From an uncultured delta proteobacterium (GTDB lineage: Bacteria > Myxococcota_A > Polyangia > Polyangiales > JADJMO01), in the NCBI GenBank assembly GCA_903923175.1, contig CAIXWQ010001299.1, positions 1 to 33,712 of the forward strand: 33,712 nt of DNA, read 5' to 3'. The notes below the pieces were generated by a model. It ran no database searches and had not been told where the DNA came from. It was given only the letters and a program-made list of their open reading frames with translations. Made by a program: the position numbers and the translations under genes. Shown here one piece after another: positions 25,409-32,057 of this stretch. The first letter of the stretch is position 1. Each line of letters opens with the position of its first letter.

Positions 25409-26326
25409 ATGATCGACTACGAGGCCAAGAACTGGACTGACGTCGTTTTCCGGCTCCGCGGCTCGGTGCTGCCGCGGCTCTTCCCGCGCATCCTCGTGGC
25501 GGCCGGCTTCGGCGCCTTCGCCGCGTGGCTCTACGTCACGCGCGGGGTGAAGTTCCCGCCCATCGCGCACACGCTCATCGGCGTCGCCCTCGGCTTGCTC
25601 TTGGTGTTCCGCACGAACGCCTCGTACGACCGCTACTGGGAGGGGCGGCGGCTGCTCGGCGCGATGGTCAACCGCACCCGCGATCTCTCGCGCCAGATCG
25701 CGACGCTCATCGAGGGCGACGACGCCGCGACCGCCGCGGAGCGAAGCGAGCTGCGCCGCCTCACGGCCGCGTTCTACTGGGTCTCGATCTTCGGACTGCA
25801 GAAGCTGACCGACCTCGGCAACCTCGCGGGTCACCTCGAGCCCGCGGAGGTCGCGGCGCTCGAGAAGCGATCGGCGCGCGCGCCGATCCTGCTCGGCTGG
25901 ATCTCGCAGCGTCTCGTCGCGCTCGCCCGGGCAGGCAAGCTGACCGAGCCGCGCCTGCAGCTCTTCGACGCGAACCTCACGGCGCTCGTCGACGCGCTCG
26001 GCGGCGCGGAGCGCATCGTGAAGACGCCGATCCCGTTCGCCTATGCGCAGCACATCAAGACGTTCGTCGTGCTCTTCTGCCTCACCGCGCCGTTCGCGAT
26101 GGCGGAGTCCATGAAGTGGTACACGCCGATCGCGGCCGCGCTGCTCGCGTTCGCGCTCTACGGCATCGACGAGATCGGCGTGGAGATCGAGGATCCGTTC
26201 GGGGACGACCCGAACGACCTGCCGATGGACCGCATCGGCGCGGCCATCGACGCGGGCTCGCACGAGCTGCTCGACGCGCTCGCGCCGCGCGCGCGCGCCG
26301 TGACGGACGACGAGCGCGCCGCCTGA
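25409..26326 (+). CDS. Bestrophin-family (UPF0187/YneE) membrane channel
   Basis: The 305-residue protein matches bacterial bestrophin homologues, pentameric ion channels. I see hydrophobic helices near residues 25-45, 50-67 and 210-250, with the signatures FRTNASYDRYWEGRRLLG, KTPIPFAYAQHIKTFV and EIGVEIEDPFGDDPNDLP; the acidic cluster corresponds to the calcium-clasp region of animal bestrophins. Bacterial members are reported to conduct cations or anions, so ion selectivity is open. It starts 12 bases after the methyltransferase stop and probably ends the four-gene operon. TATGAT lies 11 bases before the ATG, so a private promoter is also possible. Confidence 0.9.
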   Translation: MIDYEAKNWTDVVFRLRGSVLPRLFPRILVAAGFGAFAAWLYVTRGVKFPPIAHTLIGVALGLLLVFRTNASYDRYWEGRRLLGAMVNRTRDLSRQIATLIEGDDAATAAERSELRRLTAAFYWVSIFGLQKLTDLGNLAGHLEPAEVAALEKRSARAPILLGWISQRLVALARAGKLTEPRLQLFDANLTALVDALGGAERIVKTPIPFAYAQHIKTFVVLFCLTAPFAMAESMKWYTPIAAALLAFALYGIDEIGVEIEDPFGDDPNDLPMDRIGAAIDAGSHELLDALAPRARAVTDDERAA

Positions 26327-26340
26327 CCCGAGGGGCTCGG

Positions 26341-28380
26341 CTACGCGCCGAGCTGCACACGGATGGCCTCGAGCAAGCGCGCCTCGCCGGCGGTCTCGGG
26401 CGCTGCGCGGTCGATGGCGGTCGCGCCGGAGCACACGATCGCCGCGCCGTCGCGGTGGATGCGCAACGTCGCCGAGAGGGGCGTCGCGAAGCGACCGCGC
26501 GCGCCGAGGACGAGCGCCATCGGATCGGGGCCGACCGCGCGGCGCGGGGCGGGTCGCACCGAGAGCACGCGGCCGTCGGGGAGGCGCGCGTCGAGCCCCG
26601 CGACCGCGTGATCGACGGGATCGTCGTACGGGTCGACCGCGCCAGGGCAGCCGGCGTCGAGCCAGGCGCCGACGGTCACGTCGAGCATCGCCGTGTCGAG
26701 GCGCAGCGAGGCCTGCACGGCGCGTGCGGCGCGTTCGACTTCGCTGAGCTTGGTCGAGGCCGGGGCGCGCGCGAGCAGGCTCTTCACGTCGACCGTGACG
26801 GCCGACGGCTGCGGCGCGTCGCTCCCCGCGAGCGGCGGCGCGTCGCGCTCCTCCGGCGGAAACAGGTTGCCGAGGTTGAGGATGGCCTTGGGATCCCACG
26901 CGCGCTTCACCGCGCGCAGCACGTCGATCCCGACGCCGAGCTCGAGAGGGAGCTTCGGCGCCTTCGAGCGACCGACGCCGTGGTGGTGTGAGAGCGTCGC
27001 GCCCGCGCCGATCGCCGCGTCGAGCGCGTCGCGCCAGGCCCGCTCGTACCTGGCGGTCGCGGCGGCCTCGCCGTCGGCCGAGCCGGCGAAGGTGAAATAG
27101 ATCGAGCAGCCGTCCGGGTAGGCGTGGCTCAGGTGCGCCATCACGAAGACGTGCTCGCCGAGCGCTCTGCGCACGTCGCGATAGAGCGGGCCGAGGTTCG
27201 ACCAGGTCGCCGCGACCTCCATCGTGTCGAGGAACGCGCCGGAGCGGATCGTCGGCGGCTGTCGGTAGCTGATCGCGTACCGGTGCGAGAGCCACTTGCG
27301 CGCCGGCGCTTCGCCGAGATCGCGGCCGCCGAGCTCGCGGGCCACGTCCTTGACCGCGTCGACGCCGCGCGCCGCCTCGGCCGCCGTGGCCTCCTCGAAG
27401 ACGAGCACCAGCATCGAGCCGAAGTAGCCGTCCGGCAGGTGCTCCTCCATCAGCTGGATGGCGCCGTTGAGCGCGCGGGGGAGCTTGAGGATGGTGCGGA
27501 GCGCCAAAGCCTTCAGGCCGGTGTCGCGGGGGCCGTGCGCCTCGCCGCTGCCGGCGGAGCCCGCGCGCGCGATGGCGGCGTCGAACGGGTCGTAGAGCCG
27601 CGCGACCGCGGGGCGGAGGCCGCGCTGGAAGATCGCGCGCATCGCCTCCCAGCCCGCCTCGGTCGTCGGGAAGGCGAACGCCGCGAAGCCCCGCGCCTGC
27701 GGGGCCGCGTGGAGCCGCAAGCGTGCGGAGGTCACGATCCCGAGCGTCCCCTCGCTCCCCACGACCAGCGAGGTCAGATCGAGCCCGCCCACGCGACGGT
27801 GCAGCCGCGCGACCTCGCCGGCGCCATCGACCAGCTCGAGGTCGACGATCATGTCCTCGATCTTCCCGTACTTGCCGCTCGTCTGGCCGGCGCCGCGCGC
27901 CGCGACCCAGCCGCCGACCGTGGAGCAGAGGATCGACGACGGGAAGTGCCCGATGGTCCACCCCTTGCGCTGCAGATCCTCCTCGAGCGTGACGCCGATC
28001 GCGCCGGCCTCGACGTCGAGGGTCGGGCCGAGCGGATCGAGGTCGCGCCAGCGCGACATCTTCTTCAGGTCGACGACCACGGTGCGCTCGTCGGGGAGCA
28101 CGCCTCCGCACACGCCGCTGCCGGCGCCGTAGGGGACGATCGGCACCCCCTCGCGGGCGCACCAGGCCACCAGCCGCGAGACCTCCTCCGTCGACGTCGG
28201 CCACGCGATCGCGCGCGGCCGCGTACCGGCTGCGTGGCCTGCGCGCAGCGCGACGAGGTGCTTCGGCCAGAGGTCGCGCGCGTACGCGACGCGGTCGGCC
28301 TCGTCGATCGACACCACCGCGCGGGCGCCGGCGGCCTGCGCGAGCGCGTGGGCGAACGAGGACGGGTCGGAGGCGGCCAT
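26341..28380 (-). CDS. FAD-linked oxidase, alkylglycerone-phosphate synthase (AGPS)-like
   Basis: The 679-residue protein resembles AGPS, which swaps the acyl chain of acyl-DHAP for a fatty alcohol to form the ether bond of ether lipids. The FAD-binding domain has VPYGAGSGVCGGVLP (82-96), GHFPSSILCSTVGGWVAARG (144-163), SGKYGKIEDMI and VVGSEGTLGIVTSARLRLH (206-224). The C-terminal catalytic domain has SHHHGVGRSKAPKL (His465-467, as in AGPS) and DPKAILNLGNLF (496-507). Residues about 540-679 are extra and look like a decayed second copy of part of the FAD domain. Myxobacteria are known to make ether lipids. It could instead be a D-lactate/glycolate-type oxidase, but the HHH motif favours AGPS. 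TACCCT lies seven bases before the ATG. Confidence 0.85.
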   Translation of the reverse strand: MAASDPSSFAHALAQAAGARAVVSIDEADRVAYARDLWPKHLVALRAGHAAGTRPRAIAWPTSTEEVSRLVAWCAREGVPIVPYGAGSGVCGGVLPDERTVVVDLKKMSRWRDLDPLGPTLDVEAGAIGVTLEEDLQRKGWTIGHFPSSILCSTVGGWVAARGAGQTSGKYGKIEDMIVDLELVDGAGEVARLHRRVGGLDLTSLVVGSEGTLGIVTSARLRLHAAPQARGFAAFAFPTTEAGWEAMRAIFQRGLRPAVARLYDPFDAAIARAGSAGSGEAHGPRDTGLKALALRTILKLPRALNGAIQLMEEHLPDGYFGSMLVLVFEEATAAEAARGVDAVKDVARELGGRDLGEAPARKWLSHRYAISYRQPPTIRSGAFLDTMEVAATWSNLGPLYRDVRRALGEHVFVMAHLSHAYPDGCSIYFTFAGSADGEAAATARYERAWRDALDAAIGAGATLSHHHGVGRSKAPKLPLELGVGIDVLRAVKRAWDPKAILNLGNLFPPEERDAPPLAGSDAPQPSAVTVDVKSLLARAPASTKLSEVERAARAVQASLRLDTAMLDVTVGAWLDAGCPGAVDPYDDPVDHAVAGLDARLPDGRVLSVRPAPRRAVGPDPMALVLGARGRFATPLSATLRIHRDGAAIVCSGATAIDRAAPETAGEARLLEAIRVQLGA

Positions 28381-28450: not shown

Positions 28451-29149
28451 TCACATGCAGCCGCCGCAGTTCGACGCCATGCAGCTCACGAAGGTCTGCG
28501 TGGCCGCGTCGTTGTTCTTGTTGATGCACTGCGTGACGCACGTCCCGGTGTACGAGCCGCAGGCCTGCGCGCACGTCAGGAAGTTCTTGCAGGTCGCGTC
28601 GAAGTAGCACGCCTGCGCCTGGCTCGCGCAGGCGCTCTGCGCGCAGGTCGTGCAGCTGGGGGCCGGGCCCGCGTCGACGGGCGGCGGCGTCGCGCAGGGC
28701 GCGTTGCTCGTCACGCGGCCGTCGCAGTTCTTGTCCTGCCCGCCGCAGTCCTGGCCGGACGGCGTGCAGCGACAGAGCTTCCCGCCGGTGGTCTGGCTGC
28801 AGTACCAGCCGGAGACGCAGTCCGCCGCGTTGTTGCAGGTGGTCGTGCAGAGACCGCCGGAGCAGTGGCCGCTCGCGCACTGCGCGCTCGACGTGCACGT
28901 CGAGCCGACCGGGCCGCCGGGGTTGGGGCCCGTCTCGACCGGCGGGACCGAGGTCTCCTCGACGATCGGCGTGCCGTCGGGCTCCGGCTTGGCATCGACG
29001 GACACCGGCGACGAGTCGATCGGCTGGACGCTCGTGTCGTCGCCCGTGGCGCCATCGGTGCCGGGGTCGAAGACCGAGCCGTCGATTTGACCGCCGCAGC
29101 CGGCGACCAGGACCAAGGGGAGGGCGAGCGCGGCGAAGCGAAGCATCAT
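28451..29149 (-). CDS. Cys-rich surface lipoprotein
   Basis: A 232-residue putative lipoprotein with a short signal peptide and lipobox LVAGC, followed by a Gly/Asp/Thr/Pro-rich tether to about residue 85. Then come two cysteine-dense blocks of 12 Cys each: the first (CTSSAQCASGHC to NAPC) resembles short disulfide-knot repeats seen in myxobacterial extracellular proteins; the second (CTTCAQSACASQAQ to CGGCM) is another disulfide-rich motif ending the protein. Such proteins are probably surface-exposed and disulfide-bonded; the function is unknown. The first of two adjacent ATGs (29149, 29146) is chosen because a TAGGCT element ends seven bases before it. Confidence 0.85.
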   Translation of the reverse strand: MMLRFAALALPLVLVAGCGGQIDGSVFDPGTDGATGDDTSVQPIDSSPVSVDAKPEPDGTPIVEETSVPPVETGPNPGGPVGSTCTSSAQCASGHCSGGLCTTTCNNAADCVSGWYCSQTTGGKLCRCTPSGQDCGGQDKNCDGRVTSNAPCATPPPVDAGPAPSCTTCAQSACASQAQACYFDATCKNFLTCAQACGSYTGTCVTQCINKNNDAATQTFVSCMASNCGGCM

Positions 29150-29156
29150 CCGACGC

Positions 29157-29162
29157 AGCCTA
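29157..29162 (-). promoter_or_regulatory. -10 element, leaderless-type, for the Cys-rich lipoprotein
   Basis: TAGGCT on the minus strand ends seven bases before ATG 29149, identical to the hexamer before the histidine kinase. It lies in the 130-base gap after mazG, which otherwise shows no clear feature. Confidence 0.55.
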
Positions 29163-29279
29163 GTCGACCCGCGCGCACGCGCACGTCCATCCGCCGTCGC
29201 GGCTGCAGTCGTCCGTCTTCGCCGCAGGCCGCACCCACACGTCGTCTTCGGTGGCATGCGTCCGCGCGGGGCGCCTTCG

Positions 29280-30158
29280 CTACGACTCGGAGCGCTTCGC
29301 CTCGTTCCAGTAGCCGTCGAGCGTCTCGAGCGACGGATGGCTGCCGAACCCCCCGTGCTCCTCGCGAACGCGCTGCTCCACGTGCCCGAAGCGGCGCACG
29401 AACTTGTCGACCGTCCGCCGCAGCGCCCCTTCGGCGTCGATGCCGCCGCCGTCGCTCGTCTTCACGTGGCGGGCGAGGTTGACCAGGGAGAAGAACACGT
29501 CGCCGAGCTCCTCTTCGATCTTCGCGACCTCGCCGTTCGCCATCGCGGCGTCGAGCTCGGCGAGCTCCTCGCTCACCTTCGCGCGCACGCCGTCGATCGA
29601 CGGCCAGTCGAACCCCACGCGCGAGACCTTCTCGCCGACCCGCTGGGCGCGCACGAGCGAGGGGAGCGCGCGCGGCACGCCCTCGATGAGCCCGCGATTG
29701 CCCTTCTCCTTGGCCTTGATCTGCTCCCAGTTCTTGAGGACTTCGGCGGAGTCCACGGCCGTCACGTCGGCGAAGACGTGCGGGTGGCGGCGCACGAGCT
29801 TCTCCACGATCCCCTCGACGACGTCGTCGGGCCCGAACGTGCCGTCGCGGCGCGCGAGCTCGGCCTGGAAGACGACCTGCAGCAGCAGATCGCCGAGCTC
29901 CTCCCGGAGGTGGACCGCGTCCTTCGACTCGATCGCGTCGATGACCTCGCACGCCTCCTCGAGCACGTAGCGCTTGAGCGTGTCCGGGGTCTGCGAGCGA
30001 TCCCACGGGCAGCCGCCCGGCGCGAGGAGCCGGCGCATGACGGCGACGAGTCGGGGGAAGGCCTCGCCGATCTGCCGCTCGAGGGGGGTCTCGGCGGGCT
30101 TCGCGGTCGGGTCGGGGAGGCGGACGTCGGAGGCGAGGGGGCCGGATTTGTCGGGCAC
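29280..30158 (-). CDS. mazG: Nucleoside triphosphate pyrophosphohydrolase MazG
   Basis: MazG hydrolyses NTPs and dNTPs to monophosphates and pyrophosphate, cleaning non-canonical nucleotides and affecting (p)ppGpp signalling. The protein contains two tandem MazG domains: the first with GGCPWDRSQTPDTLKRYVLE, EEACEVIDAI and REELGDLLLQVVFQAELA, followed by RRHPHVFAD; the second with KVSEELAELDAAM, KIEEELGDVFFSLVNLARH and VDKFVRRFGHVE. EExxE and ExxD metal-binding acidic clusters are visible in both. The start is placed at GTG 30158 (292 residues); the frame is open to GTG 30206, but codons between the two have non-biased third positions. It is divergent from the Omp85 gene, about 120 bases away. 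Confidence 0.94.
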   Translation of the reverse strand: MPDKSGPLASDVRLPDPTAKPAETPLERQIGEAFPRLVAVMRRLLAPGGCPWDRSQTPDTLKRYVLEEACEVIDAIESKDAVHLREELGDLLLQVVFQAELARRDGTFGPDDVVEGIVEKLVRRHPHVFADVTAVDSAEVLKNWEQIKAKEKGNRGLIEGVPRALPSLVRAQRVGEKVSRVGFDWPSIDGVRAKVSEELAELDAAMANGEVAKIEEELGDVFFSLVNLARHVKTSDGGGIDAEGALRRTVDKFVRRFGHVEQRVREEHGGFGSHPSLETLDGYWNEAKRSES

Positions 30159-30261
30159 GCGCCCGTTGAAGCACAGTCGGCGCGGCGTGTCAGGACCGAC
30201 GTCCACCGCGCGCGACCCGGCGCAGACGGCTCCAAAATGCGTCCCCGCGGGGCGGACCTGC

Positions 30262-30267
30262 TAGCTT
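30262..30267 (+). promoter_or_regulatory. -10 element, leaderless-type, for the Omp85-like gene
   Basis: TAGCTT ends eight bases before GTG 30276. It supports that GTG as the start instead of the upstream in-frame ATG at 30237, which would put the promoter inside the coding region. Confidence 0.45.
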
Positions 30268-30275
30268 GTCCGACG

Positions 30276-32057
30276 GTGGCGACCCTCGGACGCTACGCAA
30301 GGGCCAACCGGGCGCTGCTCGTCGTCGGCGCGCTCGCGATCGGCCCATGGTCGTGGGCGCGCGGCGCCGTGGCGCAGCGGGGAGAGGCCGTCGGCGCCGC
30401 GTCTGCCGCGTCTCCATCCGCAGCCATCGCGCCCTCGACGTCGTCGTCGGCGACCGAGAGTGGCTCCGCCCCGACCATCGCCGCGACGTCGCCGAGCGCG
30501 TCGCCGAGCGCGTCGAGCGCCCCGGCCGCGGCGTCGTCGACGGCCGCGGCGTCGTCGACGGCCGCGGCGCCGAGCGACGCCGAAGCGTGCGTGCCCGTGC
30601 GCGAGGCCGCGGACGGCGGCGCTGCAGCGGGCGAGGCGGGCAAGCTCGGCCTCCGCTACGAGATCGAGGCGATCAAGGTCCACGGCAACCGCCGCACCCT
30701 CGAGCGCGTGATCCTCCGCTACGTCCCCTACCAGCCCGGCGATCAGCTGGAGGTCGACGACGAGCACCTCGAGCTGACGCGCTTTCGCCTGCTCGGCACC
30801 GGCTTCTTCTCCGACGTCCAGCTCTCGCTCACCAAGGGGTCCAAGCGCGGCCTGGTCGTGATGAACGTCACCGTCGTCGAGCGGAACACGATCGTCGTCA
30901 ACGATCTCTGGCTCGGGCTCTCGGCCGACGCGCGCCTCGACGGCGCCAAGCGCCCGCTCACGGCGTTCGGCGGGGCCGACATCGCGGAGACGAACTTCTT
31001 CGGCACGGGGATCTCGATCGGCGGCGGCGTCGCGGTCGCCGACAAGCAGCAGGCGTATCGGCTCCGCTTCGTCGACCCCTCGTTCCTGCGCAGCGCGTGG
31101 ATCGTCTCGGCCTCGCTCCTCTACAACAACGCGCGCGACTTCTTCGGCAACTGCACGCCGCTCCCCGGGCAGAGCTGCGCCGGCAAGGTGCAGTACGACC
31201 CCGCGCCGGGCGAGTCGACGGCGACCGACTACGCCGTCGCTCTCTACTCGCGCACCGGCTTCGAGCTCGGCGCCGGCTACGACCTCGGCGCCTCGACGCG
31301 CCTGCGCGGGGCCTACCACCTCGAGGTCATCAACGCGTCGCTCCCCGCGGCCGCGTCGCAGTACCGCGGCTACGACCAGGAGCCGATCGAGTTCCATCTG
31401 ATCAACGGGCGCTCGATCCTCTCGCTCGTCTCGCTGCAGCTCGAGGACGACACCCGCGACGATCCGATCCTGCCGACGCGCGGCTACTTCGTGCAGCTCG
31501 GCCTCGATCTCGGGCTCTCGTCGCTCGGCAGCGACTACCCGTTCCTGCGCTTCCAGGGGCGGGCCTCGAAGTACTGGACGCTCCCCTGGGGCGGCGACAA
31601 CCGCCACGTCTTCCGCCTCGACGGCTTCGCCGGCGCGATCACCGGCGACGCGCCGCTCTTCATGCGGTTCTACGTCGGCGACCTCTCCGACTTCCTCCCC
31701 GATCGCGCGCTCGATCTGAACTTCGATCGCCGCCCGTCGCCGAACTTCCTGCGCACCAACGTCGGCGAGATGCGCTACGAGGAGCTCGCCGCGAGGCTCG
31801 TGGGCGAGTACCGCATCCCGATCTACCGCGGTCATCGCTCCGTCTACGGCATCGACTTCTTCGGCTCCGCGGGCTTCTTCGCGCTCGGCTCCCGGCGCGA
31901 CTTCACCGAGCCCGCGCGCGGCTTCTACGGCGCGTCGCGCTTCCCGGTCGACCTCACGTTCAACCTCGGGCTGCGCATCTCCACCAACGCCGGCGGCTTC
32001 TTGCTCGGGCTCTCCAACGCGATCGGCGCGTTCCCGATTCGCAGCGAGGCGAAGTGA
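30276..32057 (+). CDS. Omp85/BamA-family outer membrane protein (single POTRA)
   Basis: The 593-residue protein has a signal peptide (RALLVVGALAIGPWSWARGAVAQ), then about 70 residues of Ser/Ala/Thr/Pro-rich linker, one clear POTRA-like domain (YEIEAIKVHGNRRTLERVIL, YQPGDQLEVDDEHLELTRFRLLGTGFFSDVQL), and a beta-barrel of the bacterial surface antigen type (DDPILPTRGYFVQLGLDL, amphipathic strands, ending RISTNAGGFLLGLSNAIGAF). BamA itself has five POTRA domains, so this is probably a TamA-like or lineage-specific paralogue involved in outer-membrane assembly or secretion. The GTG start is favoured by a TAGCTT element eight bases upstream. It overlaps the next gene by four bases. Confidence 0.85.
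   Translation: MATLGRYARANRALLVVGALAIGPWSWARGAVAQRGEAVGAASAASPSAAIAPSTSSSATESGSAPTIAATSPSASPSASSAPAAASSTAAASSTAAAPSDAEACVPVREAADGGAAAGEAGKLGLRYEIEAIKVHGNRRTLERVILRYVPYQPGDQLEVDDEHLELTRFRLLGTGFFSDVQLSLTKGSKRGLVVMNVTVVERNTIVVNDLWLGLSADARLDGAKRPLTAFGGADIAETNFFGTGISIGGGVAVADKQQAYRLRFVDPSFLRSAWIVSASLLYNNARDFFGNCTPLPGQSCAGKVQYDPAPGESTATDYAVALYSRTGFELGAGYDLGASTRLRGAYHLEVINASLPAAASQYRGYDQEPIEFHLINGRSILSLVSLQLEDDTRDDPILPTRGYFVQLGLDLGLSSLGSDYPFLRFQGRASKYWTLPWGGDNRHVFRLDGFAGAITGDAPLFMRFYVGDLSDFLPDRALDLNFDRRPSPNFLRTNVGEMRYEELAARLVGEYRIPIYRGHRSVYGIDFFGSAGFFALGSRRDFTEPARGFYGASRFPVDLTFNLGLRISTNAGGFLLGLSNAIGAFPIRSEAK
30489..30512 (+). repeat. 12-bp tandem repeat in the Ser/Ala linker
   Basis: TCGCCGAGCGCG occurs twice in tandem within the Omp85 gene, encoding part of the Ser/Pro/Ala linker (SPSASPSAS). 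In-frame repeats like this can expand or contract without breaking the gene. Confidence 0.7.
30524..30569 (+). repeat. 18-bp tandem repeat in the Ser/Ala linker
   Basis: GGCCGCGGCGTCGTCGAC is repeated twice exactly (30524-30541 and 30542-30559) with a partial third copy (30560-30569). It encodes repeated Ala-Ala-Ser-Ser-Thr-Ala units just ahead of the POTRA domain, so linker length may vary between strains. Confidence 0.8.

Follow-up and report, generated by a model that had tools for sequence, protein, structure and literature searches.

Among the multi-subunit FAD oxidases, the glycolate dehydrogenase GlcDEF is composed of the catalytic FAD subunit GlcD, the small FAD-fold subunit GlcE, and the CCG iron-sulfur subunit GlcF. 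GlcE is thought to play a supporting role beside GlcD, and reduced FAD-fold subunits of this kind are known in the superfamily, with a poorly defined role. The other closely related enzymes are AGPS, in which residues R419, R515, Y578, and H615–H617 matter, and the mammalian D-lactate dehydrogenase LDHD, which shares the two-domain FAD fold.

We analyzed a window (the whole stretch of DNA under study) of 33,712 nucleotides from an uncultured delta proteobacterium, where an unbroken open reading frame on the reverse strand (26341..28380) encodes a protein of 679 amino acids. We call A the enzyme core, or its gene, and B the C-terminal tail, or the separate downstream gene that corresponds to it in relatives. 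Our main reading, to which we assign a probability of about 0.7, is that this protein is a catalytic AGPS/GlcD-like FAD subunit (A) fused to a reduced, non-catalytic FAD-domain subunit, a degenerate half PCMH domain (B), that was formerly a separate downstream gene. The assembly is of a known kind, that of the multi-subunit FAD oxidases having a reduced FAD-fold subunit, such as GlcDEF; here B is fused and amounts to half a domain.

Domain Organization of the Fused Protein

All the features described here lie on the reverse strand. A carries both Pfam domains of a VAO/PCMH enzyme above their gathering cut-offs, namely the FAD_binding_4 (PCMH) domain at residues 55–193 (27802..28218; E 2.4e-41 in the whole protein, 141.1 bits against a cut-off of 26.4) and the FAD-oxidase_C cap domain at residues 227–505 (26866..27702; E 3.1e-35, 122.5 bits against 21.2). 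The pyrophosphate loop PYGAGSGV (residues 83–90, 28111..28134) is mostly invariant in 23 fused proteins. By alignment to guinea-pig AGPS (4bby), A has the equivalents of R419, Y578, and H615–H617 in R261 (27598..27600), Y428 (27097..27099), and H465–H467 of the SHHHGVG motif (26980..26988), all of them invariant in the 23 fused proteins, while AGPS R515 is aligned with Q374, which has an Arg next to it. A variable linker (residues 506–529, 26794..26865), delimited by alignment and by gene overlaps, occupies the position of the stop/start junction of those relatives that have two separate genes.

The AlphaFold2 model of the whole protein (pLDDT 83.9, pTM 0.87) was matched by Foldseek to AGPS. 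A fused homologue with 85% identity exists in the same genus, and a PADLOC search of the 679-residue protein gave no hit. Around the gene, the window contains a Bestrophin_2 family channel gene convergent with it (25409–26326, forward strand), a predicted secreted Cys-rich lipoprotein-like protein without a Pfam match directly upstream on the same strand (28451–29257), a MazG pyrophosphohydrolase gene (29280–30206, reverse strand), and an Omp85/POTRA outer-membrane protein gene (30231–32057, forward strand); an Omp85/POTRA gene is also found near the homologue in locus L067.

The Tail as Half a PCMH Domain

The preliminary description of this gene had proposed that residues 569–642 repeat the pattern of residues 154–224, and the motifs it quoted are indeed found at those residues. 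The self-alignment that it called for gave a Smith-Waterman score of 78 between N-domain and tail, a score reached by none of 1000 shuffles of the tail (mean 32, standard deviation 5). At the family level, HHalign aligned the tail family with the N-domain family with a probability of 98.1% and an E-value of 1.3e-13, residues 530–645 (26446..26793) running collinear with residues 114–227 (27700..28041) over 113 columns, and the repeat is thus confined to the PCMH domain's second half. The tail alone (residues 513–679) matches positions 57–138 of the 139 of Pfam FAD_binding_4 with an E-value of 1.7e-4, although its 21.7 bits stay below the gathering cut-off of 26.4.

Structure prediction agrees with the sequence comparison. 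The AlphaFold2 model of the isolated tail (pLDDT 88.2, pTM 0.82, residues 530–600 mostly above 90) repeats the order of elements of residues 111–222, E-E-H-H-H-E-E-H-E, with no counterpart of the short N-domain helix at residues 174–177. In the model of the whole protein, there is a C-terminal helix of poorly conserved sequence (residues 664–678, 26347..26391). With the tail model, Foldseek placed first the FAD domain of mammalian AGPS (4bby; E 1.6e-8, TM 0.56 by query length), followed by D-lactate dehydrogenases, with Thermus GlcE (2yvs, a 219-residue chain) also among the matches, and a sequence search with the tail profile again put AGPS first (E 1.8e-8). The loss of FAD-contacting residues, as had been claimed, is apparent in the replacement of GSEGTLG by GARGRFA and of STVGGW by VTVGAW. 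In addition, the tail is missing the whole first half of the FAD domain, so that the residue table shows no counterpart of the pyrophosphate loop PYGAGSGV there. With this loop absent and GSEGTLG lost, the tail lacks the FAD-binding loops expected of a VAO/PCMH protein and is, judging from its sequence, a degenerate PCMH piece unable to hold FAD in the usual way.

Origin, Decay, and Fusion of B

In relatives, the tail domain is either fused to A or encoded by a separate gene immediately downstream. The suggested survey of relatives thus found that the tail recurs, but often as the separate gene B rather than as a fused extension. In the Myxococcota loci, B directly follows A, often with a stop/start overlap. 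It has 155–190 residues in Labilithrix, other Polyangiaceae, and similar genomes, where the short separate gene often begins on the stop codon of A; 290–310 residues in other families (loci L015, L017, and L020); and, in other Myxococcota such as Archangium, mostly 235–475 residues, its FAD domain being either entire or decayed in part. Each of the 35 tails tested favored a B profile over an A profile (mean 78 against 19 bits); they still scored 55 bits when the B profile was built only from more distant loci, and 19 bits was all they reached even when the A profile came from the very enzymes that bear them. A tree of the second halves puts the tails in one clade (support 98) and unites this clade with B (SH-aLRT 97.8), apart from A and the other AGPS-like proteins; forcing each tail to group with its own A comes at a cost of 65 log units, and the AU test rejects it (p 0.0115). 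Given the separate B genes, the profile scores, and the common clade of tails and B, we therefore take the tail, from these sequence data, to descend from a separate downstream gene and not from the enzyme's own N-domain. Read by eye, the longer-form B and A branch alike in several groups. In its deep origin, B may be either a copy of A or another AGPS/LDH-like oxidase, the branches of the tree being long and the root distant.

Several stages of decay are found. At the top of the series, B consists of the two domains, or its cap has partly decayed; in L099 and L091 it has a complete FAD_binding_4 domain plus part of the cap, most FAD-domain residues being kept, including GSEG, while the catalytic HHH motif is gone. 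In the middle, B is a PCMH domain only (L015 and L093), and late in the series it is half a PCMH domain, separate in L014, L080, and L098 and fused in the window. The aligned residues show neither the pyrophosphate loop nor GSEG in most of the remaining B proteins, and in the short ones the entire first half of the FAD domain is missing. A G-P-D loop is nevertheless retained in nearly all B proteins, long forms included, and becomes PRRAxGPD in the short ones; in the window, it is PRRAVGPD (residues 612–619, 26524..26547), the most conserved stretch of the tail. To explain the fused and separate states, the tree of A needs 8 changes, of which at least 7 are forced by well-supported branches. 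Another fused set, with long tails of 320–415 residues (L111, L105, L096, L109, and L107), comes from elsewhere in the A tree and is an independent fusion of a longer B. In two loci, L100 (6460–7887) and L108, A has another full-length FAD oxidase downstream of it; these proteins were excluded from the series as independent tandem paralogues because they keep most catalytic motifs and fall outside the B clade.

Two other explanations of the tail can be weighed on these data. The partial duplication that had been suggested before, in which the tail would be the second half of the enzyme's own N-domain after losing FAD binding, agrees with the clear homology and collinearity of the two segments. 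Such a duplication would, however, make the two copies each other's closest relatives, whereas in the profiles the tails are nearer to B proteins encoded separately than to the domain of any A, the tree groups them with B, the AU test rejects their grouping with their own A, and many relatives encode this domain in a gene of its own; we consider this origin strongly disfavored, giving it the lowest probability of all the readings. Scarcely better placed, and very improbable, is the view of the tail as evolutionary debris, a functionless remnant passively kept. Its last 30 residues are poorly conserved, and its dN/dS is about 1.2 to 2.3 times that of the core, but the tail values are only 0.19–0.30 (core 0.10–0.23; NG86, five close pairs). 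Two more distant pairs gave higher tail values of 0.41 and 0.72, with dS saturated or noisy. Also against debris are a confident predicted fold, a reading frame unbroken in every complete copy seen, six residues (D587, G595, P612, R613, G617, and P618) that are invariant in the fused set, and about eight independent switches of the fusion state in which the tail was never lost. In the five close pairs, the tail is under purifying selection.

The Putative Iron-Sulfur Partner and the Type of Enzyme

The gene next after A in archaea (including Asgard lineages) and in several bacterial phyla encodes a Fer4_8/CCG iron-sulfur protein, and many Myxococcota have the order A, B, and iron-sulfur gene, often with a lipid kinase gene. 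In the group with short B, the iron-sulfur and kinase genes were not within 5 kb of A, where the contig allows such a view. Compared with GlcDEF, the CCG gene is adjacent to A in many relatives and unlinked in the short-B lineages and in the window's own genome. An unlinked CCG iron-sulfur gene is present in 23 of 23 genomes with A, compared with 1 of 30 without it (Fisher p 4e-14, a value that is only indicative, as the genomes are related and kinship is uncorrected). In the window's own genome, two pieces of this gene lie at contig ends, one on C986 and one on C425; the simplest reading is a single gene that the assembly has split. The co-occurrence suggests a functional relation of A and B with the iron-sulfur protein. 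Separately, we observed about ten CCG-type iron-sulfur matches in one relative without A (genome G024).

Some arrangements outside the Myxococcota are worth recording. Ten loci of Asgard and Thermoplasmatota genomes (L122, L128, L131, L132, L134, L135, L138, L142, L143, and L144) have an AGPS-like FAD oxidase with an HHHG-type motif and an adjoining CCG iron-sulfur gene, without B, and in the archaeon L122, an FGGY-family kinase gene lies directly upstream of the oxidase. Four Bdellovibrionota loci (L118, L124, L126, and L127) and an unplaced bacterium (L120) share a conserved run of three genes, for an AGPS-like oxidase, a CCG iron-sulfur protein, and a lipid kinase of the YegS type, which may be a lipid-linked redox operon undescribed in the literature that we found.

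With AGPS (4bby from guinea pig and 2uuu from Dictyostelium), the window's protein shares the fold of both A and the tail, the order of the domains, R419, Y578, and the HHH motif. It differs in having about 25% identity in the structural match, a replaced R515, an extra C-terminal half PCMH domain, an iron-sulfur partner, and a place in the tree apart from the clade that the other AGPS-like proteins of the genome form. With GlcDEF, the likeness lies in the three-part layout of A, B, and iron-sulfur gene in relatives and in B being a reduced FAD-fold paralogue like GlcE. Unlike GlcD, which has EHG, A has the AGPS-type HHHG; the window has no adjacent iron-sulfur gene, and only half of the FAD domain is left in the short B. 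A reaches 168.2 against a cut-off of 567.9 for the GlcD equivalog, the B-clade proteins tested reach at most 70.8 bits with the GlcE model (NF008439, cut-off 284), the long B proteins score higher with the GlcD model than with that of GlcE, all far below the cut-offs, and the window's tail matches neither. LDHD has no B domain, a different metal/acid motif, and a lower sequence similarity to A than AGPS has.

The label of AGPS-like enzyme in the preliminary description therefore holds for the catalytic residues but not for the placement of A or for its partner. That A could be a genuine AGPS, one that supplies alkyl-DHAP for ether lipids and is tuned by B, is favored by the AGPS residues kept, by AGPS being the best PDB relative, and by the lipid kinase gene (DAGK_cat, YegS_C) in the operon of relatives. 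We nevertheless regard it as unlikely from these sequences, given that R515 is aligned with Q and that the remaining AGPS-like proteins of the genome group by themselves, without A (SH-aLRT 99, in a tree without a named AGPS), one of them being closer to solved AGPS (234 bits against 208 for A). Moreover, the AGPS candidate of M. xanthus, MXAN_1676, belongs to another operon, together with epimerase and FAR1/GNPAT-like genes, and contributes only in a minor way to ether lipids (PMC9131029). An electron-carrying iron-sulfur partner, ill-suited to the redox-neutral exchange of AGPS, points instead to redox chemistry and suggests that A is a dehydrogenase with an AGPS-type site. A glycerol or lipid substrate is hinted at by neighboring genes, a lipid kinase and a thioesterase in some Myxococcota and the FGGY kinase of one archaeon, with unrelated genes elsewhere. 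The same partner raises another explanation for the tail, namely that it is a docking module for the iron-sulfur protein, kept by fusion once the iron-sulfur gene had left the A-B operon. The downstream position of this gene in many Myxococcota, its co-occurrence with A when unlinked, and its absence within 5 kb in short-B lineages speak for such a module, but archaea and Bdellovibrionota pair A with the iron-sulfur gene without any B, and so B is not needed for the pairing in general. We hold this explanation to be rather doubtful, if slightly more probable than a true AGPS.

Proposed Role of B and Its Significance

Returning to the reading of A as a catalytic subunit fused to its reduced former neighbor, B would have begun as a separate gene of the FAD-oxidase type directly downstream of A in Myxococcota; the loss of its cap domain, followed by that of the first half of its FAD domain, would have left about 115 folded residues, and this reduced B would then have been fused to A in several lineages. 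Because of the adjacency of the two genes and their repeated fusion, we infer that B stays bound to A, where its half PCMH domain would fill a subunit interface and, by analogy with GlcE beside GlcD, would stabilize the complex or help to seat the partner. Fusion would secure a one-to-one supply of A and B. A itself would be a lipid- or glycerol-related dehydrogenase of the AGPS type, probably passing its electrons to the CCG iron-sulfur protein encoded elsewhere in the genome. B is most likely a pseudo-subunit that serves assembly or the docking of a partner, and it may also regulate substrate access. A structural or regulatory role, proposed earlier as dimerization or substrate control, is still the most plausible one, now separated from the duplication to which it had been tied.

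We found no description of B in the literature searched, which mostly did not extend to subscription journals. A stronger version of our reading, which we put forward only tentatively, is that B constitutes an undescribed family of Myxococcota pseudo-subunits that have lost catalysis and cofactor but are essential to A, gating or seating the iron-sulfur carrier. If this were true, the family would have been caught at every stage from a whole paralogue to a fused remnant of 115 residues. With all the stages and repeated fusion in one clade, the smallest piece that is still needed can be read and tested. We also suggest keeping in view that an apparent internal repeat may be the fused relic of a neighboring gene, and that the link of AGPS-type active sites to an iron-sulfur partner suggests that some proteins annotated as AGPS-like are dehydrogenases.
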